Positions 7,145 to 48,677 of a stretch of 64,000 bases of DNA are shown in pieces. Source of the DNA: Artocarpus heterophyllus (lineage: Eukaryota; Streptophyta; Magnoliopsida; Rosales; Moraceae); assembly GCA_025403435.1 (NCBI GenBank), contig CM046351.1, forward strand, positions 1,461,796 through 1,525,795. Reading direction: 5' to 3'. Both the position numbers and the translations under genes were made by a program. The notes below the pieces were generated by a model. The model searched no databases. It saw only the letters and a program-made list of their open reading frames with translations, and was not told where the DNA came from. Position 1 is the first letter of the stretch. Every line of letters starts with the position of its first letter.

Positions 7145-7638
7145 TGAGTCATGGTTTTGGGGTCATTATTCAGATTCAAGATTGGGGTCGCGATTTGAGA
7201 TCGAGATTGGGATTGGTATTTGAGACCGAAGTCAAGGTTGAGATTTGGGATTGAGGTTGAGGTCGTGATTTGGAGTCGGGGTCAAGGACAGGATTCGAGA
7301 CCATAGTCGGGATTGAGATTCGAGGCCGAGGTCAGGGACAGGGATGGATTTGGGACCAAGGTCAGGGTGAGATTTAGGGCTAGGGTTAGGGTCGAGATTT
7401 TGAGCTGGAGATGGGGACAAGGTTTGGGATCGAAGTCAGGATTCAAGATAGAGGTTGGGATTCGAGACCGATGTCATGGTTGAGATTCGTGATTTTAGGA
7501 TCATGGTTAGGGTCGGCATTCAGGGTTGAGACCAAGGTCAGATCCGGATTCGGGGCCGAGGTAGTGGGTTAGGATTTGAGACCAGTGTCGGGGTCGGGAC
7601 TGGTGTTGGGGTCAAGATTGGGCTAGGGTCAAGGTAAG
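7145..7638. repeat. G-rich degenerate tandem repeat (left arm)
   Basis: Repeating GAT-TYGGGACC-RAGGTC-RGGGT-like units, G-rich on plus. The repeat is continuous with 16612-16905 once the LTR retrotransposon is removed. GGGTTAGGG-like pieces inside are part of this unit, not a telomere array. Confidence 0.75.
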
Positions 7639-9997
7639 TGTAACGCCCCTATATGGGGGTTAACAGTTTTTAATGAGATAAAATAAAAATAAATAATAAA
7701 AGTAAAACCTTAAAGATTAAAATTTGCCCGGGACTTAAATGAAAACTCTCAACTCAAAAATAAAAATATAAACGACAAATAAACCACAGTTTTAATGTAG
7801 CACCTTAAATTTAATAATATAAACTGTTGTCATCATCATTTTAACCCTCAACACATTATAATACAGTCACAGAAAGTAACAATTGATGCTTACATTATCA
7901 TGAAGAACATTCTTTACAATTGAGCAGTCCCAATGTAATATAGTTACATCGCTTCCTCAACTATATTTCTCGTAGCCACCTCACACTTAGTGAGTCCTGA
8001 AAAGATATAAACATAAGGGAATGAGCAACACTATGCTCAGTAGAGAAAGCCATTACTCACCTTTAGGTTTTTATCATTACCACATTAAAATCTGCATGGT
8101 TAGTAGGTTACATCATATTCCAGATTATGAGGTTTATTATGATCACATCTTATGGATACCGTAGTTAATCATTACCAAGTGTCATAATTACACATTTATA
8201 CAAATATTACCAATCATCATTGTTCCTAGGTATCCATGTTAAATTGAGTATCACTCAACTCATCGAGACCCAAATGGGCGCACTTGATCACCCTATAAAC
8301 ATTCCAAGGGTGTTCCGGTGAGGGGACATCAAGCCCCGAGTCCTCACCAAGTCGATTCCTGTACAGTGTGTTCTGGGACTTTCAACCCAAGGAAGCGTCA
8401 TCGCCTTCCCCCTATTTTACCTTTTAGGGTATTCATGCCCAAGGACGTAACCGTCGCCCTCTTCATGTCTTACAATTTCTCTATATTGAATCATTATCAA
8501 TAGAGTTAGTTTTCCTAACCATGCTTCTCAATTTATAACATGTGTAAATTCATTATGTTCCTCGCCGTACAATACAAGACGAGTCCATGTCATAGTTTCA
8601 TATGTGATACTCATATAATATCAGTTCAACATAGATATATATATTGCGGCAAAACAATCAATTTTAATTCTATAAAAACCTTACAAAAGATGAGTAATAG
8701 AATCCCTACCTTTCAAGCTTATCAACAATCTTTTAATCCTGGAATCAGTTAACGTTAGCTCCATACTCCCTTGATCCTAAGGCGTGCATAAGGACAATTA
8801 AAACTAAAGCACAACATACAACTACATTCATAAATAAATCATGTGTAAACCTATCTTACTAGTATGCCATTAAAGCTTTTATATAAATCTCTTTTGAATA
8901 CCACAGTAAACAATTTTTGTCTTAACACAATATAAAATGTGAACAAGTAATCTATATGTTTTAGTCCCTAATAAGATTCATCAATCACTTAGGATAATAT
9001 TGGAAAGGTTGCAAGACATTAAAGAATTAGGTGGTGAGCAAAGATGGGTTCTTGGTTCAGGTTAGCAGCTGGTATACCATAACAAACTGGCAGATTTACT
9101 AGTTTCCAATACAAAAATTAAATAATTCTTAGAAAATAAAATACAACTCCGATTTAGGTTTATGATAGCTCGTTAGAAAGCCTAGGATGCTACTTTTCAA
9201 ATATGCAAACCAATTCATAAAATTCATTTTAATTTAATCTTAGAATTTCAAGAAATAACCACTGCCCATAGAGGTATTACAAAGTTTAACAATATAAATT
9301 TTCTGTCTAGGGCATATACACTTAGACTTCATACATATGCTCCAAAATAGCAACAAACATATACTTAGGTTTAAGAACGCAAATTTGAATAATCCTTTAG
9401 TATAAAAGAAAATTTATAAATGAAAGACTAAATTTGTTCATAAGATTCTAACCTCGGATTATGGTTAGTTGGAAGCTTGAAATGGCTTCAAAACAGGTTC
9501 CTTTACTTCGGTATGACTGAAATTCTTGCTCAAATGGAGGTGATGGTGGCTGATTTTTATGGCTGCCTTGAAGAAGTTCTCTAAGTATTTTGCTTCAGCA
9601 AAGAAATGAGAAGAAGAGTGTGGGAACCGTGGAAGAGAAAGGAAGAAAAGATGAAGTCTTTGAAGAGAAGTGATAGAAACAATTATAGAGGAGACATGTT
9701 GAAGCATGTCACGGAGGAAATAAAGAAAATGAGGGTCAAGAGTAGTTGGAAAAGATATCCTTATGTCTCATCCAAAGACTTTAACACACATAATGCCAAT
9801 ATGACATTTTTGAGATTTATTAGAAGTTCTAAGGCTTTTTAGTAATCATACTAAATAAATATAGGAGAATTTTAGAAAACTTAAAAATAGATAAAAATAA
9901 ATATTATAAAATAAATTTAAATGAAGCAATTTTTTTTTATACATTAAAAATTAATTTAATTACCTCAATACCCGTTAGGAGAATAACGGGTGTCACA
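7639..9997 (-). repeat. 3' LTR of the LOG-bearing retrotransposon
   Basis: 2,359 bp, apparently identical to 14248-16606 at a constant offset of 6,609 bp. Short ORFs inside it (for example near 8318-8503 on plus) recur in every LTR copy only because the LTR itself is conserved. Confidence 0.92.
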
Positions 9998-10000
9998 GCT

Positions 10001-10015
10001 CTACCCCCCTTAAAG
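10001..10015 (-). promoter_or_regulatory. Polypurine tract of the LOG-bearing element
   Basis: The minus strand reads CTTTAAGGGGGGTAG just before the 3' LTR start TGTGACACCC. This is the expected primer for plus-strand DNA synthesis in LTR retrotransposition. Confidence 0.8.
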
Positions 10016-10952
10016 AAATTTCGTCCTCGAAATTTCAATTCTAGCAATACTAGTAAAAATTTTGATTCCATTATGATTCCAATTCCGAGTCTAAACCGTT
10101 AATGTTGTTTATCTTCCAAAGTTAAGTTATCGTATCTCCACTTATTTACTTGCATAATAAATCTTACTCCTAAATCCCTCAATGAGAGTATTTCTGATAA
10201 GTTTCAACTTATAACACCGTATAATAGTCTAAGAATCTGATCAGGCATACATATTGACCATATCATGATTCCAGTCCTTCATTGTCCATGGACCGTGATT
10301 TACAATCACATTTAAGGAGATTGCTAGAGAAATTTTATATACTTCATCTTTAGGTTCCTTTTCCTTTTTGAGTAAGGAAAAGTCAAATATATTTGATTTC
10401 ATACCTCAACTAATAAACTAAAACATAATCATAAAACATATATCACAAACACTTATATTCAAAACTATACATTAAACTTACTCATAGAGATATTAAACGG
10501 AATCTCAGAGTTGCAAACATACCCGACATATTTTTCATTAAACAGCTATCCTCATGACACAAACATTCAACCCAAATACTATACTCATATTTCATATGGA
10601 ATATCCCCATAACTGACTCTGGTACTTCCACATAATATTAACAGAATATTACACATTACAAACATAATACGGATACGTTTCGAGAGTACAAGGCACTCCG
10701 TATACCAGCTATCCATATCATGCATGCTTATAGGATACAAAAACATCGATAAACAAAAGATCGGACCTTAAGAAGGATGCGTTTCGAGAGCATCAAGTAC
10801 TCCGTATCCAGCCATCCCGGCATTAGGCTCAATGAATCTAAAAGATTGAACAACGACGTACCACAAGAAACACAAAATACAAGGTAAACGGTTATTCGTA
10901 ACACACGAAATACGGACACACATGCCTACATGCCAAAGATAAAACAAAAAGA

Positions 10953-11603
10953 TTACAGATGGAGATTCAAATCAATTGGCCGCTCCCGGCTTTCCCTTTC
11001 CCATTCAAGCTTGGATGTTGCAGTGTCGAATTCTGGATGTATGATTTGCATTTTATCTATCAATTCCTCAGCTGTTGAAGCAGTAACAAAGATTTGTCTC
11101 TCCGATTCTGTAGTGATGTTTTCTTCCACAGCGTAATCTAGAAATTTCAAAAGACCGTCATAAAAACCCTTTACGTTCAGCAGACCCAAAGGTTTGGAAT
11201 AAAAGCCCAACAATTGCCCACAAGCAACTATAAATATTTCCTCAAGAGTACCTAGACCACCAGGTAATGCTATAAAAGCATCAGAATTATAGATTATGTC
11301 TTTAAAATTTTTAGGGATACTCCTGACTCCTTCTCCCTTACCTATGGCTTCCTTACAAAGGTTTCCTTCAACTGGAATATGAGGCCAAATTCTTACATCA
11401 GTAGCGTCGCTAGACCTAGCTGCTAGTGCCATATTTACCATCATTTTTATACTACCACCCCCATAGATTATGTTAATCTTCTTGCGTGCTAGGACTTGCC
11501 CTAAGTGATTTGCAGCTTCTAAATAAGCTTTATCTTTTCCAAGGCTGGAACCACAAAAGACACAGACATTCTTTATTTTCTTCGTGGACTGGGAGGTAGA
11601 CAT
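10953..11603 (-). CDS. LOG-like protein carried in an LTR retrotransposon (intronless)
   Basis: 216 aa from the ATG at 11603; the frame stays open upstream to a GTG at 11642. LOG enzymes release active cytokinin bases from riboside monophosphates through a Rossmann-like fold. Seen: N-terminal VCVFCGSSLGKDKAYLEAA (13-31), YGGG (47-50), DAFIALPGGLGTLEEI (108-123, the PGGxGTxxE signature with Leu for the usual Tyr), KPLGLLNVKGFYDGLL (137-152), and a C-terminal SKLEWE. Plant LOG genes have several introns; this copy has none and lies in element sense between the primer site and polypurine tract, so capture from a spliced transcript is likely. In my alignment the Arg of the family's HxRK motif falls on Asn99, and GLMG after the glycine stretch is KMMV. 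Cytokinin-releasing activity is therefore doubtful. The frame has no stop or frameshift. Confidence 0.85.
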   Translation of the reverse strand: MSTSQSTKKIKNVCVFCGSSLGKDKAYLEAANHLGQVLARKKINIIYGGGSIKMMVNMALAARSSDATDVRIWPHIPVEGNLCKEAIGKGEGVRSIPKNFKDIIYNSDAFIALPGGLGTLEEIFIVACGQLLGFYSKPLGLLNVKGFYDGLLKFLDYAVEENITTESERQIFVTASTAEELIDKMQIIHPEFDTATSKLEWERESRERPIDLNLHL

Positions 11604-12246
11604 ATTTGGTTTATAGAAGTGGTTGCTTAATGTCTGCTCCACTTAGACTTCGGGTTCTACATGAGATTTTAAAGATGAGAAATATACAAAAAGGGCTAAA
11701 GAGATAGACGAGTAGGTAATGAAAAGGTAATCCAAAGATTTAAACAAAATCTTGTGCGGATAAGAAAGTAAGATAAGGTGATTGATAGTTTACAGAAAAT
11801 CTGATTCACTTTTTGAAAAAGATTAGACTCTAATTGTATAACTTTTGACAATTGAGAACAATTCGACAGAAGACCCTCATGACACAACTGTAGACTTTTT
11901 GACAAATATACACCAAGTCTAGAAATTTAATATAAACGACAAATACTGTAGAACTTTTGAAATTTGAGACACAAATCTTGAAATATCTGGATAAGCTTTT
12001 CAAAATTCAAACATATTACTGTACCGTATGTAACGTGTCTGATAAGATAATATATTTTATTATATATATATTTAAGAAAATCATAAATTAAATAAGATAT
12101 TAACACTTACTGTATCAATCTAATAATCACAATTATTTCAAACACAAAAGCAAATATTCTGAGTAAAAGAAAAACACAAACTGTTGAACATCAGCTAAAA
12201 CTGCTTCAAATAAGTAAAGACTAAATAACCTTTATAGAGCGATGAC

Positions 12247-12768
12247 TTATTCCCCATCCAGTTTTCTTATGGCTTGGCAAACAGGATCTAGAAATACCAT
12301 ATTCCTGAGGCGTTGTCTTTCTGTATAAAATTTAGGCCAGAGTTTAAAAATAGCTCCTTGAACATATCCACTAGGGTGACCGTGGAGAGGAGGATGGATA
12401 CTATCCAAGTTCTCCTTTGAAAGTCCATTCCTACAAAACCTTATTTTATCCTCTCTATTCGTAGACATATAACCAGGTGAAGTACATTTACCGTTACAAT
12501 TTTGTCTTCCACATTTGTTACAAGTGACCACGATGGCACGAGCTCTTCTTTTCATTGCACTACGACTGGTACCTGTTCCTGGTAAACCGACATCTTGACT
12601 AAAGTCACTCGGACGGATCTTCCCCTCTATTAACATTCTCACATCACAAGGGATACCAAAACGCATAAGAATCCACAACCGAGTAATTCTAGCCTTATAT
12701 TTCTTTCTGAGAATCTTTTGGGAGAGTGATGGGAAATACTTTCTCATGTGTTGGTACTTTGGGTCCAT
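12247..12768 (-). CDS. Basic Cys-rich protein of unknown function in the retrotransposon
   Basis: 173 aa, ATG at 12768, upstream of the LOG-like ORF in element sense. Strongly basic throughout. The N-terminal third (RKKYKARITRLWILMRFG, ~21-38) is followed by KRRAR (73-77) and a four-Cys cluster at C83, C86, C91, C95 (C-x2-C-x4-C-x3-C). The spacing resembles a retroviral zinc knuckle in which His is replaced by Cys. The layout of a basic patch followed directly by a compact Cys cluster also resembles cysteine-rich nucleic-acid-binding proteins of some plant RNA viruses such as carlaviruses. Either reading suggests RNA/DNA binding, but that is inference; I do not recognise a family with certainty. 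No introns or frameshifts. Confidence 0.6.
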   Translation of the reverse strand: MDPKYQHMRKYFPSLSQKILRKKYKARITRLWILMRFGIPCDVRMLIEGKIRPSDFSQDVGLPGTGTSRSAMKRRARAIVVTCNKCGRQNCNGKCTSPGYMSTNREDKIRFCRNGLSKENLDSIHPPLHGHPSGYVQGAIFKLWPKFYTERQRLRNMVFLDPVCQAIRKLDGE

Positions 12769-14228
12769 GATGAGATGAAAGAAGAGTAAATAGAAAGGAA
12801 AAATTAAGATAGTAAATTGCAGAATCCTAGAATTCCTTCTTCTTTTAGAGGAAAAGAAGAATTTCTAATGAAAAAGAAGAGGATTTGCGATTTAGAGAGA
12901 AAATAACAAATTAAGAGAGAAAAAGTGAACTCGGAGAAATAAACTCTTATGCACAGTAAACGTATATGTAAACAATAATTAAACCACTGTATATGACACG
13001 TATAGAGACCACGTGGGAGAGACAGTGTGAATCAAACTGATTTAAGATTTGAACTAGGCCCAAATGTTCTAAGTTGAAAATGGTCAGGTTGTTTCGGGCC
13101 TTAACACATTTGGAACGAATTAAATAACAAACATAAAATTGAAAACCAATTTGTATAAATCTTAAACCCAATTCAAAGTCCACTATAGATAAAGTTAACT
13201 ATAAACAACAAATCTAATTTAACGACAACAAGGATCTTCCTGAATGATATTTAAAATCATTTCATAACAACATAATCCTCCAGCAACTCAAATAATTTTG
13301 TTTTAATCAAAACTTTATTGAACAATACAAACACCCATATGTTATTCATAATACTTAACATCTATCAATGGATTCATCATCATTGCTACCAAGGGTTTAG
13401 AATGCGACTAACCTTGAAATCAATACGATTTACGTCTTCCAACGTAGACCATATAAATGAACAAAGACACTTGATGTTACTACTTAAGAACATCTACAAT
13501 CCCCACAATTCTACTTATACAATATATAATTTTTTTCATATAACAAAACCTTAGGTAACCAAAAGATTCACTGATACACTTAAATACAATGTACGTAACA
13601 AAATATTCCAATTTTGAGATTCATGCATTCTAGACTTTACACAGTCTCAACAGACCAAAAGTCTAACATTTATCTCTCTCAAGATTCAATACCATGATTC
13701 CCAACTTATATCATATTCCTCAAATATATAGAACTTTTAAGAAAAGACATTGACACTTATGTGCTCCATCGAATCCACACATAATCATTACTTAGGTTTG
13801 AATCAATTACGAAAAATATGCCAAACTTTAAAATCAATAAATCAAGCCTTATATTTCTTATTGTTTTTCACGAGACAAAAGGCTCTTAAATCCTCGTATC
13901 TATACGAATTTCTCATCGTTTATACGAATTAGATATGCTTATAGATCCAAATATTATACGAATCTCTCGTAAGCATTCTACTTATAAACTCATTCCATAT
14001 AATTATCATTCCCTTATAACTATTAATACTTTCCTTCTATATAATTATTGTACTCATATAACTATTGATATTTTCATTCTATGGCCTTTCCATGTTACAT
14101 CCTTCTAGACTGTATAAATTAATGTAAAGGTTCATTTTGATGATGACACTGAAAATTCAGCTTCAAAACCATCTCAAAAATATATTTTTTTAAAGTGGTG
14201 CTACACTCCCTAGGTTAACCGAACCTAG
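12769..14228 (-). other. 5' internal region of the LOG-bearing element, non-coding
   Basis: AT-rich DNA between the primer site and the first ORF in element sense. Short ORFs on both strands show no protein-like composition. It may hold the packaging and leader signals of the element RNA. Confidence 0.5.
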
Positions 14229-14240
14229 GCTCTGATACCA
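14229..14240 (-). promoter_or_regulatory. Primer binding site, initiator tRNA-Met
   Basis: The minus strand reads TGGTATCAGAGC, complementary to the 3' end of plant initiator tRNA-Met, seven bases after the 5' LTR end (GTTACA). This fixes element orientation and marks 14248-16606 as the 5' LTR. Confidence 0.92.
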
Positions 14241-14247
14241 AAAATTC

Positions 14248-16606
14248 TGTAACGCCCCTATATGGGGGTTAACAGTTTTTAATGAGATAAAATAAAAATA
14301 AATAATAAAAGTAAAACCTTAAAGATTAAAATTTGCCCGGGACTTAAATGAAAACTCTCAACTCAAAAATAAAAATATAAACGACAAATAAACCACAGTT
14401 TTAATGTAGCACCTTAAATTTAATAATATAAACTGTTGTCATCATCATTTTAACCCTCAACACATTATAATACAGTCACAGAAAGTAACAATTGATGCTT
14501 ACATTATCATGAAGAACATTCTTTACAATTGAGCAGTCCCAATGTAATATAGTTACATCGCTTCCTCAACTATATTTCTCGTAGCCACCTCACACTTAGT
14601 GAGTCCTGAAAAGATATAAACATAAGGGAATGAGCAACACTATGCTCAGTAGAGAAAGCCATTACTCACCTTTAGGTTTTTATCATTACCACATTAAAAT
14701 CTGCATGGTTAGTAGGTTACATCATATTCCAGATTATGAGGTTTATTATGATCACATCTTATGGATACCGTAGTTAATCATTACCAAGTGTCATAATTAC
14801 ACATTTATACAAATATTACCAATCATCATTGTTCCTAGGTATCCATGTTAAATTGAGTATCACTCAACTCATCGAGACCCAAATGGGCGCACTTGATCAC
14901 CCTATAAACATTCCAAGGGTGTTCCGGTGAGGGGACATCAAGCCCCGAGTCCTCACCAAGTCGATTCCTGTACAGTGTGTTCTGGGACTTTCAACCCAAG
15001 GAAGCGTCATCGCCTTCCCCCTATTTTACCTTTTAGGGTATTCATGCCCAAGGACGTAACCGTCGCCCTCTTCATGTCTTACAATTTCTCTATATTGAAT
15101 CATTATCAATAGAGTTAGTTTTCCTAACCATGCTTCTCAATTTATAACATGTGTAAATTCATTATGTTCCTCGCCGTACAATACAAGACGAGTCCATGTC
15201 ATAGTTTCATATGTGATACTCATATAATATCAGTTCAACATAGATATATATATTGCGGCAAAACAATCAATTTTAATTCTATAAAAACCTTACAAAAGAT
15301 GAGTAATAGAATCCCTACCTTTCAAGCTTATCAACAATCTTTTAATCCTGGAATCAGTTAACGTTAGCTCCATACTCCCTTGATCCTAAGGCGTGCATAA
15401 GGACAATTAAAACTAAAGCACAACATACAACTACATTCATAAATAAATCATGTGTAAACCTATCTTACTAGTATGCCATTAAAGCTTTTATATAAATCTC
15501 TTTTGAATACCACAGTAAACAATTTTTGTCTTAACACAATATAAAATGTGAACAAGTAATCTATATGTTTTAGTCCCTAATAAGATTCATCAATCACTTA
15601 GGATAATATTGGAAAGGTTGCAAGACATTAAAGAATTAGGTGGTGAGCAAAGATGGGTTCTTGGTTCAGGTTAGCAGCTGGTATACCATAACAAACTGGC
15701 AGATTTACTAGTTTCCAATACAAAAATTAAATAATTCTTAGAAAATAAAATACAACTCCGATTTAGGTTTATGATAGCTCGTTAGAAAGCCTAGGATGCT
15801 ACTTTTCAAATATGCAAACCAATTCATAAAATTCATTTTAATTTAATCTTAGAATTTCAAGAAATAACCACTGCCCATAGAGGTATTACAAAGTTTAACA
15901 ATATAAATTTTCTGTCTAGGGCATATACACTTAGACTTCATACATATGCTCCAAAATAGCAACAAACATATACTTAGGTTTAAGAACGCAAATTTGAATA
16001 ATCCTTTAGTATAAAAGAAAATTTATAAATGAAAGACTAAATTTGTTCATAAGATTCTAACCTCGGATTATGGTTAGTTGGAAGCTTGAAATGGCTTCAA
16101 AACAGGTTCCTTTACTTCGGTATGACTGAAATTCTTGCTCAAATGGAGGTGATGGTGGCTGATTTTTATGGCTGCCTTGAAGAAGTTCTCTAAGTATTTT
16201 GCTTCAGCAAAGAAATGAGAAGAAGAGTGTGGGAACCGTGGAAGAGAAAGGAAGAAAAGATGAAGTCTTTGAAGAGAAGTGATAGAAACAATTATAGAGG
16301 AGACATGTTGAAGCATGTCACGGAGGAAATAAAGAAAATGAGGGTCAAGAGTAGTTGGAAAAGATATCCTTATGTCTCATCCAAAGACTTTAACACACAT
16401 AATGCCAATATGACATTTTTGAGATTTATTAGAAGTTCTAAGGCTTTTTAGTAATCATACTAAATAAATATAGGAGAATTTTAGAAAACTTAAAAATAGA
16501 TAAAAATAAATATTATAAAATAAATTTAAATGAAGCAATTTTTTTTTATACATTAAAAATTAATTTAATTACCTCAATACCCGTTAGGAGAATAACGGGT
16601 GTCACA
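14248..16606 (-). repeat. 5' LTR of the LOG-bearing retrotransposon
   Basis: 2,359 bp, TGTGAC...TTACA on the minus strand, followed outside by the GTAAG duplication (16607-16611). It should contain the promoter that transcribes the LOG-like ORF. Confidence 0.92.
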
Positions 16607-16611
16607 GTAAG

Positions 16612-17393: not shown

Positions 17394-19773
17394 TGTAATG
17401 TCCTTATATGGGGGCTAACAGTTTTTAATGAAATAAAATAAAAATCAAAAATAAAAGTAAAACCTTAAAAATAAAGTTGCTCGAGACTTAAATGAAAACT
17501 CTCAAATCAAAAATAAAAATATAAACGATGATTAAACCACAGTTTAATGTAGCACCTTAAATTTAATAATATAAAACTATCGTCATCATCATTTCAACCC
17601 TCAATGCATTTTAATACGGTCACAGAAAGTAACAATTAATGCTTATATTATCATGAAGAACATTCTTAGCAATTAAAGCAGTCCCAACATAATATAGCTA
17701 CATAGCTTCCTCAACTATTTTTCTCGTAGCCACCTCACACTTAGTGAGTCCTGAAAGGATAAAAATATAAGGGAATAAGCAACAATATGCTCAATAGAGA
17801 AAACCATTACTCACTTTTAGGTTTTTATCATTACCACATTAAAACCGGCATGGTTAGTTAATACTCATCATTATCCATATTATGAGATTTATTATAATCA
17901 TATTTCGTGGATACCATAGTTAATCATTGCCGAGTTTCATACATATACATATATACAAATATTACAGTTCATCATTATTCCTAGGTACCCACGTTTAATA
18001 GAGCATCACTCAACTCATCGAAACCAAAATGGGCGTGCTTGATCACCCTTTAAACATTCCAAGGGTGTTCTGGTGAGGGGACATCAAGCCCCGAGTCCTC
18101 ACCAAGTCGATTCATGTACAGTGTGTTCTGGGACTTTCAACCCAAAGAAGCGTCATCACCTTCCCCTTATTTTACCTTTTAGGGTATTCGTGCCCAAGGA
18201 CGTAACCGTCGCCTCTCTTCACGTCTTATCATTTCTCTATATTCAATTATTATTTATAGTTAGTTTTCCTAACCATACTTCTCAATTTATAACAACATGT
18301 GTCAATTCATTACATTATTCGCCGTACAATACAAGACGAGTCAATGTCATAGTTTCATATGTGATACTTATATAATAGCGGTTCAACATAGATATATATA
18401 TATATATATATATCTTGCGGTAAAATAATCAATTTTAATTCCTTAAAAACCTCACAAAAAATGAGTAATAGAATCCCTACCTTTCAAGCTTATCAACAAT
18501 CTTTTAATCCTGGAATCAATTAACGTTAGCTGCATACTCCCTTGATTCTAAGGCGTGCATAAGGACAATTAAAACTAAAGCACAACATACTACTATATTC
18601 ATAAATAAATCATGTGTAAATCTATCCTACTAGTATGCCATTAAAGCTTTTATGCAAGTCTCTTTTGAATACCGCAGTAAACAATTTTTGTCTTAACATA
18701 ATATAAAATGTAAACAAGTAATCTATATGTTTTAGTCCCTAATAAGATTCATCAATCACTTAGGATAATATTGGAAAGGTTGCAGGACATTAAGGAATTA
18801 GGTAGTGAGCAAAGATGGGTTCTTGGTTTAGGTTAGCAGCTGGTATACCATGACAAACTGGCAACTTTATTAGTTTCCAATCCAAAAATTAAAAAAGTTC
18901 ATAGAAAATAAAATACAACTCCGATTTAGGCTTATGACAGCTCGTTAGAAAGCTTATGATGTCTACTTTTTAAATATTCAAACAAATTTATAAAATTCAT
19001 TTTCATTTAATCCCTGAATTTCAAGAAAGAGCCACTACCCATCAAGGTATTGCAAAGTTTAACAATATAAATTTTCTGTCCAGGGCATATACACTTAGAC
19101 TTTATACATATGCTCCAAAATAGCAACAAAACATTTACTTAAGTTTAAGAACGCAAATTTGAATAATCCTTGAGTATATAAAAAAATTATAAATGAAAAA
19201 ATAAATTTGTTCATAAGATTCTAACCTCAGATTATGGTTAGTTGGAAGCTTAAAATGGCTTCAAAATAGGTTCCTTGACTTCGGTATGGCTGAAATTTTT
19301 ATTTAAGTGGAAGTAATAGTGGCTGATTTTTATGGCTGCCTTGAAGAAGTTCTCTAAGTATTTTGCTTCAGCAAAGAAATGAGAAGAAGAGTGTGGAAAC
19401 CGTGGAAGAAAAAGGAAGAAAAGATGAAGTCTTTGAAGAGAAGTGATAGAAGCAATTATGGAGGAGACATGTTGAAGCATGTCACGGAGGAAATAAAGAA
19501 AACGATGGTCAACAGTAGTTGGGAAGGATATCCTCATGTCTCCTCTGGAGACTTTAACACACATAATGCCAAAATGACATTTTTGAAATTTATTAGAAGT
19601 TTCAAGGCTTTTTAGTAAACATACTAAATAAATATAGGAGAATTTTAGAAAATTTAAAAACAGATAAAAATAAATATTGTAAAATGAATTTTAAATGAAG
19701 CAAATTTTTAGTTGGTACACTAAAAATTAATTTAATTACCTTAATACCCGTTAGGAGAATAACAGGTGTCACA
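17394..19773 (-). mobile_element. Solo LTR of the same Ty3-type family (older copy)
   Basis: 2,380 bp from TGTAATGTCC to GGTGTCACA on plus, so the LTR sense is minus. Colinear with 7639-9997 but with many substitutions and small indels, including an (AT)n expansion near 18392. Flanks CAGCC/CGGCC match at 4 of 5 positions, consistent with an old target duplication. No internal sequence, primer site or second LTR adjoins it. Confidence 0.85.
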
Positions 19774-20664: not shown

Positions 20665-23061
20665 TGTGACACCCGTTATTCTCCTAAGGGTATTAAGGTA
20701 ATTAGATTAATTACCTAGTATATATATAAAAAAAAAATCAGAAAATCTCTCATAATTCGAAACTCTCTCTCTCTCTACTTTCTCTCTCTAAAAAAAAATT
20801 CTCTCTCTCTCCTCAAAGATCGTTTGAGATTTCGGCATCCGTTTTCGACACCTCCCGCACCAATGGAAAGCTCTCGACGAGCTGAGTCCAACGAGGTGCC
20901 GCGCCGCCCAAAACGCCGCCGGAGGAGACCACACGCGCCGCCCAAAGTGGCGGCAAAACCCATTTCTTTCCGACGAGATATCTTCGCCGTCCGACGTCCG
21001 ATCGACGTGATTCTTGTTCCTACACGACCACCGTGATGAGAGGAACAAAACCCACCCTTGGTGGCAGCTCAACAATCGCCGGATTGCTCTGCCCGCCTAT
21101 TGCCGCCGTGCACCGCCGCCCCCATGGTGGAACTCCACCTTGCCGGAGGAGGTGACTGACACCACCCCTCCCAATGAGTTCAGAGGATCAAGGGGAGTAA
21201 AACCCCTCGATCAATTGCACGGAAGGAGCCGGTTTAGCCGGAGAACGGCCAACGCCGCCGTCAACCGCCGCGGGAGCCTCCGTTTTGGCTCTTCCCAGCC
21301 ACGTTTCTTCAAATTGGATGAGTGGAAATGCTCATAGGAGGATGGGTAGCAAAAGCCCTCAGCCAATTTCAGGTTTCCATCGTCGGAGAATCAAGATCGG
21401 AGCTCATCCATTTCTACCGACGTTGTACTTCACGACCCGCTATGTTAGAGGCAGAATTGGGTGAAATTGACCCCGCCATTGGACTCAGAAGGGTCAATTT
21501 AGGGGGGGTAGGCCCGAGCCCAGCTGCCAACGGACCCCGATTGACACCGGTCAACGACGGTCAAAGTCGGTCAACGCCGGTCAACGGTGGTCAACGTCGG
21601 TCAACGGCCAGTCAAAGGCTAAATTGGAATTTTGTGATCCGGACCTCCGATTGAAGATCTGAGACCGCCTCCTGACTCGTTTCGATGCTCTGGATGCAAT
21701 GGTGACCTCCGTTTGAGCAAATTCTACTCCGATGAAAATCATCCGGTACCGACTGCACGCGAATCGAGGCGATTCAAACAGCAGTATCGGAGTCCAGAAT
21801 GACGTTTTCAAGAATGTATGATCTCCAGGAAGCATTCCTAGCCATTCATAGTAGCTCGAGGAGCACTACAGATGATGCTTCATAGATACAGCGAGATACA
21901 ACTGGATCTGTTTTGCTTGGAGTTCAAGATCAAGGGAGTATGGAGCTAACGTTAATTGATTCCAGGATTAAGAGACTGTTGATAAGCTTGAAAGGTAGGG
22001 ATTCTATTACTCATCTTTTGTGAGGTTTTTATAGAATTAAAATTGATTGTTTTGCCGCAATATATATATATATCTATGTTGAACTGATATTATATGAGTA
22101 TCACATATGAAACTATGACATGGACTCGTCTTGTATTGTACGGCGAGGAACATAATGAATTGACATATGTTATAAATTGAGAAGCATGGTTAGGAAAATT
22201 AACTCTATTAATAATGATTTAATATAGAGAAATTGTGAGACATGAAAAGGGCGACGGTTACGTCCTTGGGCATGAATACCCTAAAAGGTAAAATAGGGGG
22301 AAGGTGACGACGCTTCCTTGGGTTGAAAGTCCCAGAACACACTGTACAGGAATTGATTTGGTGAGGACTCGGGGCATGATGTCCCCTCACCGGAACACCC
22401 TTGGAATGTTTATAGGGTGATCAAGTGCGCCCATTTGGGTTTCGATGAGTTGAGTGATACTCAATTTAACATGGATACCTAGGAACAATGATGATTGGTA
22501 ATATTTGTATAAATGTGTAATTATGACACTTGGTAATGATTAACTACGGTATCCATAAGATGTGATCATAATAAACCTCATAATCTGGAATATGATGTGA
22601 CTTACTAACCATGCAGATTTTAATGTGGTAATGATAGAGGTGAGTAATGGCTTTCTCTACTGAGCATAGTGTTGCTCATTCCCTTATGTTTATATCTTTT
22701 CAGGACTCACTAAGTGTGAGGTGGCTACGAGAAATATAGTTGAGGACGTGATGTAGCTATATTACATTGGGACTGGTTCAATTGTTGAGTATGTTCTTCA
22801 TGCTAATGTAAGCATCAATTGTTACTTTCTGTGATTGTATTACAATGTGTTGAGGGTTAAAATGATGATGACAACAGTTTATATTATTAAATTTAAGGTG
22901 CTACATTAAAACTGTGGTTTATTTGTCGTTTATATTTTTATTTTTGAGTTGAGAGTTTTCATTTAAGTCCCGGGCAAATTTTAATTTTTAAGGTTTTACT
23001 TTTATTATTTATTTTATTTTATCTCATTAAAAACTGTTAACCCCCATATAGGGGCGTTACA
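20665..23061 (+). mobile_element. Solo LTR, opposite orientation, variant 5' half
   Basis: 2,397 bp, TGTGACACCC...GGGGCGTTACA, with perfect ATTGA duplications (20660-20664, 23062-23066). The first ~60 bp and the last ~1.1 kb (from ~21930) match the LTRs at 7639/14248. The middle ~1.2 kb (about 20730-21920) does not match them. It is GC-rich, starts with a CT microsatellite (20763-20812), and contains the six-fold GGTCAA array at 21549. This looks like a different LTR subfamily or a recombinant. Confidence 0.85.
21549..21604 (-). promoter_or_regulatory. Six W-box cores (TTGACC) at exact 10-bp spacing in an LTR
   Basis: GGTCAA begins at 21549, 21559, 21569, 21579, 21589 and 21599, i.e. TTGACC on the minus strand about once per helical turn. 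TTGAC[C/T] is the WRKY-factor core. The array sits in the 5' half of the LTR, where retrotransposon promoters lie. WRKY responsiveness is inferred. Confidence 0.55.
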
Positions 23062-23444
23062 ATTGATTAGAAAGAAGCCAGTCATATCCATTTGCATTGT
23101 CCATTAATGAAGAAAATAGAATTAATGTATAAACGTCGGTAAGCGCAAAACAAGAAGGCAAAAAAGAAGAGCGACATTGCAACTATAACAACGACAATAA
23201 ACTTGAATTTATTTTCACTCTTTTGATGTCGTTTTTAGAAAAAATGTTTAGTCGTCGTTTTAGTATCCTTCAATTTCGATTCCCAAATAAAATATTATCG
23301 TTGTCGTTTTTTCCCGACAAAGAAAGCCGCGAAGAATATTCCTTAGGTTATAATGGCCGGTTCTTAACCAAATCATCTTCTGTCTGTCACACGCATCAAA
23401 CTCAACGGCCCCGTTGCTTCCTCAGATTCGGAGCTCCCCCTCCA

Positions 23445-25728
23445 ATGGCGGGCCTAATCCGCCTTTCCAAACCTTCCTCCTCCGCCTTCTCTTCCTCCAT
23501 GGCCTACATCTCCAGGTCCTTCTTCTCCGCCATGGCGTCGAAGCCCAACGCCCCTTCTTATTCTTCTTCTTCTTCTTCCTTGTCTTCTCCTCCGCCGCCG
23601 TTCGCTCTCAAGCCCAACCTCCCACGCAGAGATCCCAAGGACAGGAACGTCCAGTGGGTCTTCCTCGGCTGCCCCGGAGTCGGAAAAGGCACCTACGCCA
23701 GCCGCCTTTCCAACCTCCTCGGCGTCCCTCACATCGCCACCGGCGATCTTGTACGCGAAGAGCTCGCCTCCTCCGGTCCCCTCTCTCAACAGGTCGGCCT
23801 TTTTCTTCGTCGAATTTTCTCTTTCAATTCAATCAATTGAGCTCAGATCTTTCGATTTGATTCAGGGTTTAGGGTTTATATAAATCTTGTTGATAAAGAT
23901 AATCAATTTATCTGTCTTCATCGGATTTCCTTTCTTTTTAATTAATTAAGCTTAGATCTTGAGTTTTCTTTTGGCGCTTTTGCATGATTTTTGTAGTGAA
24001 GTTTTAAGCTTTTTTGCGAAACAAGGAGTTATATCCAATCATTTTGGACAAAGGCTATCGATTTAGCTGTTTTAAAGTCGTTTGGGAAATAAGAATATTA
24101 TGTGCTTTGTTTTTGCTTAATTTCAAAGCTTTACCGGGATTGGTTTTCGTGTTGAATTGGTTGTGAGAACTGAAGTTGACTTTTTATGGATAAGAAAGTG
24201 TATTCCTCATGAAGAATGGATATATATTGACTAGGACAAAGAAACAACCTTTTTTTATTTTTGGGAAAAGAACCTTTTTGAATAAAGGTAGGTGCTTTAA
24301 CATCTCCTGTTTGTTTCGTTGTTCGAATCACAATTTAAACCTTTTTGCCAGAATATCGTCTCCCACATAAATATAAATTTCTGTTAAAATTTTATGTCCA
24401 AATCTATGAACCAAACTAGCCATTAACTGTTCTTCAACTAATTTAATCTGCGTTTATATGACTGTCTACTTACTAAAAGTCTAAAAGATCCGAGCTCAAG
24501 TCACTTTATGGACTTGTCTTTTGAACAAGCAAGTTTGAGCTTAAAACACATTGGATGAGCTTGGAAGCTACGTGGGCAATGGGTTTTTGTTTAATATTTG
24601 TTACGTCAAGCTGGTATGGAAATTGGAATATATGGAGCTGATGTAGAACCCATTATGTTTCAGGCTTTTGTTAAGATTATGTCTGAGATTTCTTTAATGT
24701 TATTATTAATCTTTTCTGGTTTTTGTTGCAGCTGTCTGAAATTGTTAACCAGGGAAAATTGGTTTCAGATGAAATAATAATAAGCTTGTTGTCGAAGAGA
24801 CTGGAGGCCGGGGAAGCTAACGGTGAATCTGGGTTTATTCTTGATGGTTTCCCTCGAACAATAAGACAAGCGGTAAGATGTTGGTGCTTAAAGCATTTTG
24901 TATGTACTAGTTACTTTAGTAGTCCATTCTTTTCAACTATTAATTATAAGACACATCTGATAAAATGGATAATTTTATATTCCCTGTTGTTACATTTCTT
25001 CTCCAAATAAAATAGCATTCTTAACGTATTAAGAATCCTACTGAAACCATGAACAGTTGCTAAATGTTTTGGCTTAATTGTTCTTCAGGAAATACTAGAA
25101 GAGGTCATCAACATTGACATGGTGTTAAATTTGAAGCTTCGGGAAGATGTATTGCTTGAAAAATGCCTCGGTAGAAGAATTTGTGGTCAGTGTGGGAAAG
25201 GATTTAATGTGGCATCCATTAATGTCAAGGGCGAGGATGGTGGACCTGGAATGAGTATGGATCCACTCCTTCCCCCTCCAGATTGTATGTCAAAGCTGAT
25301 TACCAGATCAGATGACACTGAAGAAGTTGTAAGAGAACGTCTCAGAGTATACCATGAAAAGGTATTGCTTCATTCTCTTACCACTCTTTCTAGCAAGGGG
25401 GAACTTGAACATCACATGACAATGTGACGTAAAAAGCACTTATATTTATATGTTCTGATATTGGACATTTGAACGTGTTGTTTTGTGCACTCAGTCTGGT
25501 TTTCTTTTAATTATTCATCTTGGAACTTTTACAAATGGTCATGTCATACTTATTGACGTGTTTGTTTTCCTACTGTTCTTCCAGAGTCAACCCGTTGAGG
25601 AATTCTACCGTAGTAGAGGGAAGTTATTGGAATTTGATTTGCCGGGGGGAATTCCCGAATCATGGCCAAAGTTGCTTCAAGTTCTTAATCTTGATGATCA
25701 TGAGGACAAGCGGTATGCTGCAGCATAA
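23445..25728 (+). CDS. ADK: Adenylate kinase, organelle-targeted (plastid/mitochondrial type)
   Basis: Catalyses ATP + AMP to 2 ADP. Four exons: 23445-23792, 24732-24872, 25089-25361, 25585-25728; all junctions are phase 0, giving 301 aa. Residues 1-~60 are Ser/Ala/Pro-rich and acid-poor, a typical organellar transit peptide. P-loop GCPGVGKGT at ~75-83, AMP-binding GDLVREEL, the [11 protein letters not shown] segment, LID with CGQCGK, then [15 protein letters not shown]. Closest remembered relatives are the Arabidopsis At2g37250/At2g39270 kinases. The ATG at 23445 is preferred over the one at 23223 because the extension is not protein-like and CCAATGGC is a good plant start context. A solo LTR in the same orientation ends 383 bp upstream. 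A damaged second copy of the gene lies near 30-33 kb. Confidence 0.95.
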
Positions 25729-34377: not shown

Positions 34378-35131
34378 CATATTGTAAGTGCTTAATGCAC
34401 TAACACGTGTGTGCTCAATGCAGTTATATATTAAAGTGGCCGTTATGTAAAAGAGTGCTTAATGCATTAACGCATGTGTGACTCATATTCAATTTGTATA
34501 TATGTATTTTGTTAAGAAAAATTGAATGATGGAATCAATTTCTATAGAGAGAGCATTCTTTGGGTCCTTGGTTTCCACTCTAATTCATTCTAGAGAGAGA
34601 GAAGGAACTGGAAGCTCCGAAAGGCAGTAAGTTGGAATGAGCATCCAAAGTAGATGAAGGTCGAGTTCCAAGCAGGAGCAAGGATGGGACGGCGTGCTCC
34701 AATCAAAGGAAAGGTTGCAAGCATGGAGATGACGTTGTAACCGTCAGTATGCAGGGCAAAGTTTAATGGCAAGAGGTTAGTCGATCCACGTTTCCACGTT
34801 TAGTTTATATGCTTAAGGTTATTGCATATAATTTAGTCTAACAATTGGCATCAGAGCTAAACAATTACCTCTGCTTTGAATATGTGCATACTGTGTTTCT
34901 GGAAAAAACATACCGTGGAAAAATTTTTCAATTTTTGGGTTATTGATTTTGGAGTTTTTTTAGAGAAAAATTAGGTTTGAAATCATTAACATATTTGATT
35001 TCTAAGTTTTCTATTATTTGAAACATCAAAATTGGTGTCCGGATGGTGAAAGACGAGCCGAGTTTGCAACCGGGTTGAAATTTGAGTCAGCCGGGACAAA
35101 ATGACCTGTTTAAGAGGTTAAAGAAGATTCC

Positions 35132-40908: not shown

Positions 40909-42328
40909 TTAAGGATCATGCATATAGTATGGGACTTGGTTCCTTTGTGTAAATTTTTGTTGTAAGAATGAATTTATAAAACTCTATTATGATAATTTCT
41001 CATTTTTTGTTTGTATATACATTCAATTGTTTAATTGAGAAATATCATTAAGAGGACCCAGAATAAACATATGGTTTATTCATTAAGAATTAAGGGACAT
41101 AATACATCATGATACATGAAAGATAATACTCGTTTCTAAGAGAACTTATTGTCATGATTCGTGTGTTTTGTTTCCTACTATGGTAAATAATTGAATTCAT
41201 GAGCCTAGTGGGAGATTAAGTGCTTAATGCACTAACACGTGTGTGCTCAATGCAGTTATATATTAAAGAGGTCGTTAAGTAAAAGAGTGCTTAATGCATT
41301 AACATGTGTGTGGCTCATATTCAATTTGTATATATGCATTTTGTCAAGAAAAACTGAATGATGGAATCAGTTTCTATAGAGAGCATTCTTTGGGTCCCTG
41401 GTTTCCACTCTAATTCATTCTCTTAGTACACCATCAATTTAGAGAGAGAGAATGAACTGGAAGCTCCTAAAGGCAGTAAGTTGGAATGAGCGTCCAAAGT
41501 AGATGAAGGTCGAGTTCCAAGCAGGAGCAAGGACGGGACGGCGTGCTCCAATCGGAGGAAAGGTTGCAAGCATGGAGACGGCGTTGTAACCGTCAGTATG
41601 CACAGTAAAGGTTAATGGCAAGAGGTTAGTCTATCCACGTTTCTGCATTTAATTTTTATGCTTAAGGTTATTGCATATAATTTAGTCTAATACATATTAG
41701 TTAAAATTGTCGTAATTGGATTTTATTGTTTTCTGATTATAATTTCTGTTTCTGTTAGATCAAAAGGGAATATGTGAAATCAGTCATATTTCTCTCGTGT
41801 TTTTCTTCTTTGTGTTTTTTTTATTGATTTGGAAATCTCGTCCTTAGAGGGATAGGGGTCGGACCAAGCAGGGGGCACACCAGAGGTAGAGAAGAGGAAG
41901 CTAACAAGTTTTTTTTTTTTTTTTAATTGTGGGCCAATGGCCATGTGGCTGCTTTTGATTGGGCCAACAAGTTTTTTCCCCTTGGATTTAACTTACTTTT
42001 AAATTACAATTACTAAAATACCCTCGTAATAAGGACATGTACACCTTATGTGACCTAAAACAGTGTCCTTTTAAACAGTTGTCTTTAAATGTAGTCATTT
42101 TACATCTAAATCAAAATGTTAGGTTTGGTGAAATAAAAAAGATTAGAGATTAATTATATATTTTTAAAAAATTTAGAGATCAATCAAGCTATTTTTTTAA
42201 AAATACCACATATGTTTAAAATGTGACACAATTTAAACACATAATATATAAAATAAAGTGACAATTTTTTAATAGAATTACAGATTTTAAAAGTGTAGCA
42301 TCACATGGAAATATAACATAATAACTAA

Positions 42329-45850: not shown

Positions 45851-46968
45851 AAGAAAAGAGAAGAGGCATCTCTTCACCTCTATGTTTTTGGCAAAGGGAA
45901 AAGTAGTGCGTGGAATTCTTTCTTGTGCTCTTCTTGGGCTCCAAGCCTGCCTGTTTATGACGCCTTAGAGAACCCCAAAAGTTAACTTATACTAAAAAAT
46001 AGTATATAGTTATTTATAAAAGTAGAACAAGGTAAATTAAAATGTAACATAATACTGAACTGTTACTTTGTTTCGCTTCTTTTTTCTTATTGACTAGCTA
46101 ACAAGTGTAGAGAATAAGAAGTTGCTTCTTAAATGCTAACAAGCCATGAATTTCAATAAAGATTTCCATTGGCAAATTCACTCTTCATAAATTTTGAAAC
46201 TGGTTACTCTGAGTTTATATAGTTTTATTGGTGGACAAGAAAATTATTATGAATGTCTAGAAATTTATTTTTTTAATCTTGTGTCATCAACCTAATTTAC
46301 TAAGAGTAAATTGGTCTTAATTAAATGACAATTTACCCAATTGAGTATCTACTTTAATAGATCAATAATTTACCTTAAAATATACATAAATAAAAAAGAT
46401 GAACATTTTTTGAAACAAAATATCTACAGTTTTGACTATTAAAAAAATGTTTTTACTTTTGGACCCAAAAAATATTAGTTGTTTTACTTTGATCCTAGAC
46501 TTTCAACTAACATGCTAACAATATCTAAGTTGTATCAATGATACTTTGTAACAAAAATATTAAAAAGGGACAAATTGTACAAAATAAAATAAAAAAGAGA
46601 CAAATTTTGAAAATGACGCACTAAGTGCGTCATGTATACCAAAATCTGTTAAGTTTTAAATGTTTTGGTTACAAAGATATCGTAAGTGTAACAATAGCTA
46701 AATAGCTAAGCTCCTTATCAAACAAAAAGAAAAGAAAAGAAAAAAGCTAAGCTCGAGTATTATTATAAGAGTTAAAAGTTTAGAGGTGAAAGTAAGACAA
46801 AAATATTTTTTGAGGGGCTGAAGGTGAAATTACTAAAAAAAAAAAAAAAAAAAAAAGCCCCAAACTAAACTTGCGTTTTTCTTCTTCCCGGTGAATAGAG
46901 ACTCCTCCTTCCCTCTTAATTTTTTTTTTTCCCGCCTTTGCTCCTCATCTCCATCTCTCTCTCCTCCG
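45851..46968. other. Intergenic and TOP6A leader
   Basis: AT-rich, no ORF of note. A poly-A run lies at ~46835-46856. The CT-rich leader of the TOP6A gene starts at about 46860. Confidence 0.5.
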
Positions 46969-48677
46969 ATGGCTGACAAGAGAAAACGCCGCCGGCCGGA
47001 ACCGAGCGACGACGAAGACGGCGACGCCCATCTCCCCTTCAAGAAAAGCCTGAAACCCGACGCCGCCATAATCAAAACCCTCGAAAACCTCACCGCCTCT
47101 CTCCGCTCCCCCTCTTCCTCCTCCTCCAAAACCCTAACCCTAACCGACCTCGCCCTCGCCGACAGCTGCCGCGAGGTCACCGACCTCTCGTTGGCCTCCG
47201 TCCAGTCCTCGATCGAGTCCCTCGTCCTCGCCATCGCCCAATCCATCCTCGCCGGCGAAGGCTTCTCCTTCTCCGTCCCCTCCCGCTCCGCCGCCAACCA
47301 GCTCTACGTCCCCGAGCTCGACCGGATCGTCCTTAAAGACAAGTCCTCTGTCCGACCTTACGCCAACATCTCCACTGTACGGAAGACTGCCATTACTACT
47401 AGGATCCTCCAGCTCATCCACCAGCTCTGCCTCAAGAGTATCCATGTCACTAAGCGTGATCTCTTCTACACCGACGTCAAGCTCTTTCAGGTAAATTCTC
47501 CGATATATATATATATATATATGCATATCGCTGAAATTTCTCTGTACTTTTTGATTTGTTAAAATGTTCTTAAATTTATATTTTTTTCTGGAAATATTTT
47601 CGTAAAATGATCATAGAATGTGTTTTTAAGAGAATGAAATATCTGTAAATTATCCATAAAAAAATCTATAAAATAGGGAAATATCTGTAAAATTTTGCTG
47701 ATAGTTTACTCGGTATTTTTAATAGATTCTGTCTATATTTGCTAAATTTATATTTATTTTTGGAAATTCTTTTTCATAGAATGATCATAACAGCATAATT
47801 TTGAGACTGAAATATCTATAATCTATAATTAATAAAAAAATTGTGACAATTTTGCTGAAATGTCTGTAAATGTATAGTTGTAAAAATTTGAGAAACAGAG
47901 ATTTTTATCTTTGTTTGCTTCCAGGACCAGACGCAGTCTGATTCTGTTCTGGACGATGTCTCCTGTATGCTTGGTTGTACTCGATCAAGCCTCAATGTTA
48001 TTGCTGCTGAGAAAGGTGTGGTTGTGGGGCGTTTGATTTTCAGTGATAATGGTGATATGATTGATTGTACTAAGATGGGAATGGGAGGGAAGGCAATCCC
48101 GCCAAATATCGATCGGGTTGGGGATATGCAGAGTGATGCGTTGTTCATTCTGTTGGTTGAAAAAGATGCTGCTTACATTAGGTTGGCTGAGGACAGGTTC
48201 TACAATCGGTTTCCTTGCATAATCGTGACAGCAAAGGGACAGCCGGATGTGGCAACAAGGCTGTTCCTCAGGAAGATGAAGATGGAGCTCAAGCTCCCGG
48301 TGCTTGCTCTTGTGGACAGCGATCCGTACGGACTGAAGATCTTGTCGGTTTACGGGTGTGGATCGAAGAACATGTCATATGACAGTGCAAATTTGACCAC
48401 ACCGGATATCAAGTGGTTAGGGATCAGGCCGAGCGATTTGGACAAGTATAAGATACCGGAGCAATGCAGGCTGCCGATGACAGAGCAGGATATTAAGACG
48501 GGGAAGGATTTGTTGGAGGAGGATTTTGTGAAGAAGAATCCAGGGTGGGTTGAGGAGCTGACCTTGATGGTGAAGACAAAGCAGAAGGCAGAAATTCAGG
48601 CGCTGAGCTCTTTTGGGTTCCAGTACTTGTCTGAGGTCTATCTGCCATTGAAGTTGCAGCAGCAAGATTGGCTTTGA
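46969..48677 (+). CDS. TOP6A: DNA topoisomerase VI subunit A (SPO11-3 / RHL2 / BIN5)
   Basis: A subunit of plant topoisomerase VI, which passes one duplex through another and is needed for endoreduplication and cell growth; nuclear. Two exons, 46969-47490 and 47925-48677, phase 0, 424 aa, close to the ~427 aa I recall for Arabidopsis SPO11-3. A lysine/arginine-rich N-terminus (KRKRRR) suits nuclear import. Winged-helix part with the catalytic Tyr in [12 protein letters not shown] (Tyr167). Toprim domain with acidic LLVEKDAAY (Glu253) and VDSDPYG (Asp305, Asp307). The C-terminal QQQDWL is intact. SPO11-1/-2 are shorter and intron-rich, so SPO11-3 is the right paralogue. It runs tail-to-tail toward the PPR gene. 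Confidence 0.96.

Follow-up and report, generated by a model that had tools for sequence, protein, structure and literature searches.

In a 64,000-nt stretch of the Artocarpus heterophyllus genome (GenBank assembly GCA_025403435.1, contig CM046351.1, positions 1,461,796 to 1,525,795, forward strand; the window hereafter), we identified a long terminal repeat (LTR) retrotransposon that encloses two open reading frames (ORFs), one for a basic Cys-cluster protein (ORF2) and one for a LONELY GUY (LOG)-like protein. With a probability of about 0.7, this element belongs to a recently amplified, non-autonomous Ty3-type family that is without gag-pol and keeps an ORF2-LOG module of Athila-like relatives, Athila being what we take the lineage of these relatives to be. 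The anatomy of the element, its many copies (a lower bound), the linkage of ORF2 with LOG and the selection on both, on which this reading is built, were observed directly.

The features of the element are listed in Table 1. Its LTRs show 0 differences over 2,359 bp each, and GTAAG is found on both flanks. The primer-binding site (PBS) is a 12-nt match to the 3' end of the initiator-Met tRNA (14240-14229), as judged from what we take to be the motif of that tRNA. With direct LTRs, a target duplication, a PBS and a polypurine tract (PPT), the element is an LTR retrotransposon, and the comparison of LTRs and flanks confirmed the original prediction, made by a model from the letters alone, that such complete termini enclose two intact ORFs in element sense. 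The initiator-Met PBS and the LTR ends presumably recall Tekay/Del, and the LTR lineage may therefore differ from Athila.

Table 1. Positions of the retrotransposon features in the window; the element is read on the minus strand.
Feature	Position	Strand	Basis or remark
3' LTR, 2,359 bp	7639..9997	- (element sense minus)	identical to 5' LTR
5' LTR, 2,359 bp	14248..16606	-	pairwise LTR comparison
Target-site duplication GTAAG, left	7634..7638	.	flank comparison
Target-site duplication GTAAG, right	16607..16611	.	flank comparison
PBS TGGTATCAGAGC, 7 nt inside 5' LTR	14229..14240	-	sequence; presumably initiator-Met tRNA type
PPT AAGGGGGGTAGAGC, adjoins 3' LTR	9998..10011	-	sequence
ORF2, 173 aa, basic Cys-cluster protein, Carla_C4/Viral_NABP-like plant family	12247..12768	-	Pfam and relatives
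LOG-like ORF, 216 aa from first ATG	10953..11603	-	open frame starts at 11642
Leader with many upstream ATGs	12769..14228	-	no gag-pol found

The interior measures 4,250 bp, with two long ORFs in element sense. Its two longest stop-free stretches (229 and 205 codons) surpass those of 1000 shuffles under a first-order Markov model, in which the longest and the second-longest stretch reached at most 180 and 127 codons, respectively, so both long ORFs exceed chance. Pfam gave no match of any kind at E 0.1 for 20 of the 34 other stop-free pieces of at least 40 aa (15/15 sense and 5/19 antisense pieces), and the integrase of the relative L001, described below, had no match anywhere in the window. 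On the interior pieces scanned, the element thus appears to be without the gag and pol of an autonomous retrotransposon. A decayed gag-pol was considered and rejected after inspection of the interior together with the Pfam scan of all 15 sense and 5 of the 19 antisense pieces. The 1,479 bp separating the 5' LTR from ORF2 contain 34 ATGs and LOG is the second cistron, so that expression of the two ORFs would depend on splicing or on internal promoters.

The host genome (985 Mb, 334 contigs) was searched for further copies; the copy figures are lower bounds, and ranking by similarity favours near-identical, young intact copies. When the LOG ORF was used as a DNA query, 40/40 scored matches were ~100% identical over the full length (best 40 of 582 first-look candidates), and with the protein query an uninterrupted 229-residue frame was found in 150/150 (best 150 of 6,179 candidates). 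Twenty copies were fetched by their LOG match. LOG was open in 20/20 and ORF2 was present in 19/20, as expected from the original prediction that more copies would carry both ORFs; ORF2 was open in 14 of the 19, interrupted by stops in 3 and by an indel in 2. Both LTRs could be measured in 17 copies. Perfect target duplications, each different from the rest, flanked 16 of these, and the LTR pairs of the 17 differed by 0-5 mismatches and 0-4 gaps in 1,965-2,361 bp. Two LTR sizes, ~2.35 and ~1.97 kb, occurred among L010-L029, the shorter being without about positions 1197-1574. Near-identical proteins were also present in other records (P0003, P0123). The window family is young and recently active. 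Identical LTRs could in principle have been collapsed or copied during assembly; this explanation is already refuted by the 16 different target duplications, which mark many independent insertion sites, and by P0003 and P0123, and we give an assembly artefact practically no weight.

Several neighbouring and distant LTR sequences were noted beside these copies. A solo LTR of the same family (17394-19773) is 90% identical and has a 4-of-5 target duplication (CAGCC/CGGCC). An inverted solo LTR (20665-23061) has a perfect duplication (ATTGA) and ends that agree with the family at 96% across 1.1 kb and at 84% across 73 bp, while its middle, without a family match, indicates a mosaic or variant LTR. 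Elsewhere in the genome, five consecutive LOG copies are spaced 6.62-6.66 kb apart, approximately one LTR plus interior (G000:C9:16537152-16564415), probably as a tandem array of the element.

The LOG ORF matched Pfam Lysine_decarbox (1e-21), and its best PDB match was At2g37210 (1.9e-43). Translation from the first ATG, codon 14 of the frame, yields 216 aa, which is also the length of P0003. Plant LOG genes contain introns; the frame here is uninterrupted. The protein has the LOG fold and the PGGxGTxxE motif (PGGLGTLEE) of Lysine_decarbox proteins, but both the R and the K of the R-K motif are lost, IPKNFKDI standing for MHQRKAEM, and G66 of the GGGSxGLMG loop is changed. The R-K motif and the glycine-loop residues are what we take to be catalytic, and the sequence of an active LOG is in this respect absent from the window protein. 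Compared with the family consensus, residues 60-119 fit worst (13/60 positions) and residues 120-139 best (17/20). A local frameshift was rejected as the cause of the changed region, as the frame still aligns there by eye. The C-terminal tail LNLHL has the LxLxL sequence of an EAR motif, and of 58 columns conserved to 95% or more among the 93 other LxLxL proteins, 45 are retained. Fold and tail are thus kept and the presumed active site is changed. The working hormone enzyme of the original prediction is doubtful because the R-K motif and the glycine-loop residue are changed.

These features were compared across 121 LOG proteins, namely that of the window and 120 listed from a total of 7,677 matches in the database. 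In this set, LxLxL stood at the C terminus or at most 3 residues from it in 95/121, the K of R-K (MHxRKxxM) was absent in 109/121, and the E of PGGxGTxxE and the R of R-K were kept in 119/121 and 110/121, respectively; R-K was intact in 12 proteins, 1 of which carries the LxLxL tail. The element might instead manipulate hormones, with an active cytokinin-activating LOG made from the LTR, more cytokinin and division, and transposition in meristems favoured. The intact fold and PGGxGTxxE, the frequent retention of E and R and the constraint on LOG in other families (see below) would suit such a role; the loss of R, K and G66 in the window LOG, its poor fit at residues 60-119 and the widespread absence of K speak against it, with the catalytic role of these residues again being our assumption. 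We regard hormone manipulation as unlikely.

On the tree, the window LOG falls among plant proteins in a clade of host-genome retro-LOGs, apart from ordinary plant LOGs, and nine host-genome retro-LOGs form a single clade (support 100/99). A microbial source was rejected, since plants are the origin of its clade and of the nearest relatives that carry a name.

The window ORF2 alone matched Viral_NABP (E 0.01) and Carla_C4 (E 0.11), both below cutoff. At E ≤0.1, Carla_C4 was matched by 14/16 family members (best 3.5e-7) and Viral_NABP by 13/16 (best 1.9e-7). Relatives that exceeded the Pfam cutoffs were ORF2 of L001 for Viral_NABP (3.5e-08; 34.1 vs 23) and ORF2 of L034 for Carla_C4 (5.1e-05; 23.6 vs 20.9). 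The ORF2 profile search gave 855 proteins, and the organisms named among the 120 matches listed were Populus, Xanthoceras, Hibiscus, Acer, Rhamnella and Orobanche. ORF2 is accordingly predicted to belong to a large plant family that matches the carlavirus-type nucleic-acid-binding proteins (NABPs) of Pfam. Scans of viral contigs with the alignments of both ORFs gave pattern matches and no relative. A LOG (P0083) and an ORF2 (P0143) lie on contigs of equal size (4,511), which is a hint of linkage in a different sample and proves nothing.

Diverged LOG loci in the host genome were found using a LOG of another plant (P0013) and an ordinary LOG (P0110) as queries; many have open frames and many have stops. 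In 18/18 loci around LOG matches (L030-L047), ORF2 lies upstream of LOG and is encoded on the strand of LOG. These loci comprise 4 window-family copies, 1 repeat and 13 distinct diverged loci whose LOG shares 50-70% identity with that of the window. The ratio of nonsynonymous to synonymous substitution rates (dN/dS) between families was 0.12-0.48 for LOG (29 pairs) and also 0.12-0.48 for ORF2 (28 computable pairs) among nine element copies, with dS near saturation in the widest pairs. These values indicate constraint on both ORFs, and the neutral evolution that the original prediction had named as its own refutation was not found between families. Within the window family, ORF2 variants in 17 copies counted 18 nonsynonymous (N) and 19 synonymous (S) changes, against 21-27% synonymous expected (P 4e-5 to 1e-3). 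When the window was compared with L038/L047, dS was 0.40-0.45 for LOG and 0.10-0.16 for ORF2 (LOG ~2.5-5x ORF2), so the two ORFs probably have partly separate histories, with modular exchange through recombination between families. The two ORFs could also be passive passengers that matter only as RNA or spacer, their integrity being due to very recent amplification from a single source. The near-identical copies with LTR pairs differing at 0-5 sites fit this explanation, as do the LOG variants among copies (6 N/4 S, a small sample chosen by LOG match), which do not depart from neutrality. It is contradicted by the low dN/dS between diverged families, by the synonymous excess in ORF2 variants and by the linkage of both ORFs even at 50-70% LOG identity, and we consider it improbable.

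Relatives with parts of gag-pol bear on the origin of the pair. The plant-like contig L001, which is deposited as part of a bacterial metagenome-assembled genome and probably stems from another plant, has a retroviral-type integrase of Ty3 type (rve 2.3e-16), ORF2 starting ~200 bp past the integrase frame on the same strand and a PPT-like tract ~250 bp beyond ORF2 (by eye). L048, the 6-kb stretch that precedes the diverged pair of L044, contains frames for gag (540 codons; Retrotrans_gag 1.2e-22) and protease (3.4e-6), which are followed ~0.7 kb later by ORF2 and then LOG; there is no room for reverse transcriptase and integrase because this gap is so short. At L050, a short C-terminal remnant of ORF2 (11/15 residues, E 2.3e-4) lies past an integrase 68% identical to that of L001. 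Three arrangements were thus found: pol-ORF2 on one contig, gag-protease-ORF2-LOG at one locus and ORF2-LOG in the host genome. Since L001 has integrase-ORF2 and L048/L044 gag-protease-ORF2-LOG, it is more likely that gag-pol was lost and the pair kept than that gag-pol was replaced by a captured gene. The simplest reading would be a stepwise loss from pol-ORF2(-LOG) through gag-protease-ORF2-LOG to ORF2-LOG.

The pair thus seems to be an accessory module that has long existed in Athila-like elements and has outlasted gag-pol. The original prediction fared differently in its parts on this point: a non-autonomous, presumably trans-mobilised LTR element with an uninterrupted plant-type LOG frame was supported, while the replacement of gag-pol by the two ORFs gave way to this accessory module, and a fresh capture or microbial source did not agree with the position of LOG in the host retro-LOG clade. 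An ordinary transduction, in which one element captured a LOG of the host together with a stray gene of a virus in a single recent event, would be in line with the uninterrupted LOG frame and with the gene capture by LTR elements described in PMC7264820 (in the part seen). Against this, the module occurs in several diverged families, ORF2 accompanies an integrase of Ty3 type on L001, which probably stems from another plant, and the host-genome retro-LOGs form one clade; such a transduction is very unlikely. A possible source of proteins in trans was noted separately: G000:C2:24005017 and equal-scoring copies contain an open frame of 1,788 codons with an Athila-like integrase at its end, and LOG and ORF2 were absent within 2.6 kb downstream of this frame in one copy of the group.

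A number of results weigh against a family that has kept a selected ORF2-LOG module. Anatomy, copies and selection were read from DNA only and the proteins are predicted. A complete gag-pol-ORF2-LOG element was not seen, and L049, downstream of an Athila-like integrase that amplified recently, has neither ORF. Among the diverged copies, ORF2 or LOG is broken in several; ORF2 of L044, next to the gag-protease locus, has 2 in-frame stops. Within families, dN/dS was higher (LOG 0.10-0.66, ORF2 0.17-0.79; seven pairs with few changes), the LOG variants, as given above, do not depart from neutrality, and the ranking favoured young intact copies. For ORF2, the window protein scored 16.2 bits against the Pfam cutoff of 23, ORF2 of L038 had no Pfam match and that of L039 was below cutoff. 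The structure model of ORF2 was poor (predicted local distance difference test, pLDDT, 68; predicted template modelling score, pTM, 0.34) and its viral structure matches were not significant (best E 0.13), 4 of the 10 match rows being small proteins of Cherry mottle leaf, Helleborus mosaic, Indian citrus ringspot and Cowpea mild mottle viruses. Among the 13 distinct loci with a diverged LOG, just 5 have the LxLxL tail, and the others end in DWDLSL (six) or DLNLSM (one) or are cut by a stop (one). The LxLxL label required 14 changes on the 117-row LOG tree, in part owing to incomplete sequences in some rows; its history does not appear to be one simple gain, nor the label a clean clade. Counted with duplicates and 24 window-family copies, 30/38 host-genome LOG loci have an LxLxL end.

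Under the preferred reading of a gag-pol-less family with a retained module, gag, reverse transcriptase and integrase would be supplied in trans by other elements. ORF2 and LOG probably act for the element itself because they are kept where gag-pol is lost, and their proteins may lower host silencing or reset host transcription. ORF2 would bind RNA or DNA like viral NABPs, and LOG would be a non-catalytic protein carrying a repressor tail. Counter-silencing or transcription-resetting is favoured because virus proteins of the ORF2 class are termed nucleic-acid-binding, the Cys-rich protein (CRP) of citrus yellow vein clearing virus (CYVCV), a mandarivirus, suppresses RNA silencing (PMC12172455, in the part seen), and LxLxL is an EAR motif, defined as LxLxL or DLNxxP in the passages seen of PMC9956375 and PMC6283911. 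An anti-silencing role of the module is an inference. More specifically, the pair could be a two-gene counter-defence module, with a zinc-finger silencing suppressor of the carla-/mandarivirus kind and a retired LOG serving as a TOPLESS-recruiting repressor, carried by a gag-pol-less satellite that recently multiplied; this would include gene exchange between viruses and retrotransposons in either direction. We hold this tentatively, as one possibility that falls short of even odds, and lowered it slightly because LxLxL is kept in so few of the distinct diverged loci. If it were true, selection would keep anti-silencing genes even where the replication genes are borrowed.

The remainder of the window contains pieces of host genes for an adenylate kinase (23223-23840), ribosomal protein L16 (30323-30811), Topo VI A/Spo11 (46891-48677) and a PPR protein (51847-52455), and a weak CCT motif below cutoff (502-1365). 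A direct repeat pair (34385-34841 / 41217-41690, ~6.84 kb apart) is possibly an older LTR element, and a Copia-type pol frame of 773 aa (61631-63952, minus strand, by eye) lies at the window edge.

Compared with known systems, the relatives share gag/protease, integrase and accessory ORFs after pol with what we take to be Athila-type elements with sense 3' additional (env-like) ORFs, whereas ORF2 and LOG match NABP and LOG profiles instead of env-like proteins and the window element is without gag-pol. LARD and TR-GAG are non-autonomous LTR elements with LTR, PBS and PPT and without full pol; unlike these non-coding or gag-only elements, the window family has two accessory genes under selection. 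The cytokinin-activating LONELY GUY enzymes share the fold and PGGxGTxxE with the window LOG, which differs in the lost R-K, the LxLxL tail, the uninterrupted frame and thousands of first-look candidate loci across the host genome. Carlavirus and mandarivirus Cys-rich NABPs (Carla_C4, Viral_NABP) share the basic stretch and Cys cluster, and the plant family matches them in Pfam, but the match spans the middle of the protein only, ORF2 is retrotransposon-encoded and the match of the window copy is weak. According to the part of PMC11728184 seen, Tekay elements also have a conserved accessory ORF, at the 5' side, whose protein was suggested to modulate RNA silencing; that protein is without known domain, its position is different and gag-pol is present. 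The 2020 review PMC7264820 describes, in the passages seen, antisense additional ORFs without similarity to other elements or viruses and of mostly unknown origin; the sense accessory family here matches a viral protein class with one known silencing-suppressor member. The two small ORFs make the function of accessory genes directly testable. The passages found of the Retand paper (PMC11963269) do not mention LOG or NABP, and among the matches listed in the open-licence PMC literature no paper on the ORF2-LOG module, its virus-type partner, the linkage and the EAR tail was found. The original prediction knew of no described family of this kind, but YgdH (LOG) domains are already reported by PMC9289625, in the part seen, for Gypsy-type consensus sequences from Citrus sinensis, C. 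clementina and, under a looser filter, P. trichocarpa, with citation of Steinbauerova 2011. A LOG-type domain in a plant Ty3/gypsy LTR element is thus shared and in print. Those Citrus and Populus elements were located by their reverse transcriptase, and R-K loss and an EAR-type tail are not mentioned for them in section 12 or the passages found of PMC9289625, whereas the window family is without pol and carries its LOG beside a zinc-finger ORF; this virus-type accessory ORF is linked to LOG as a second gene, an altered one of host type, is conserved between families and survives where gag-pol is lost.

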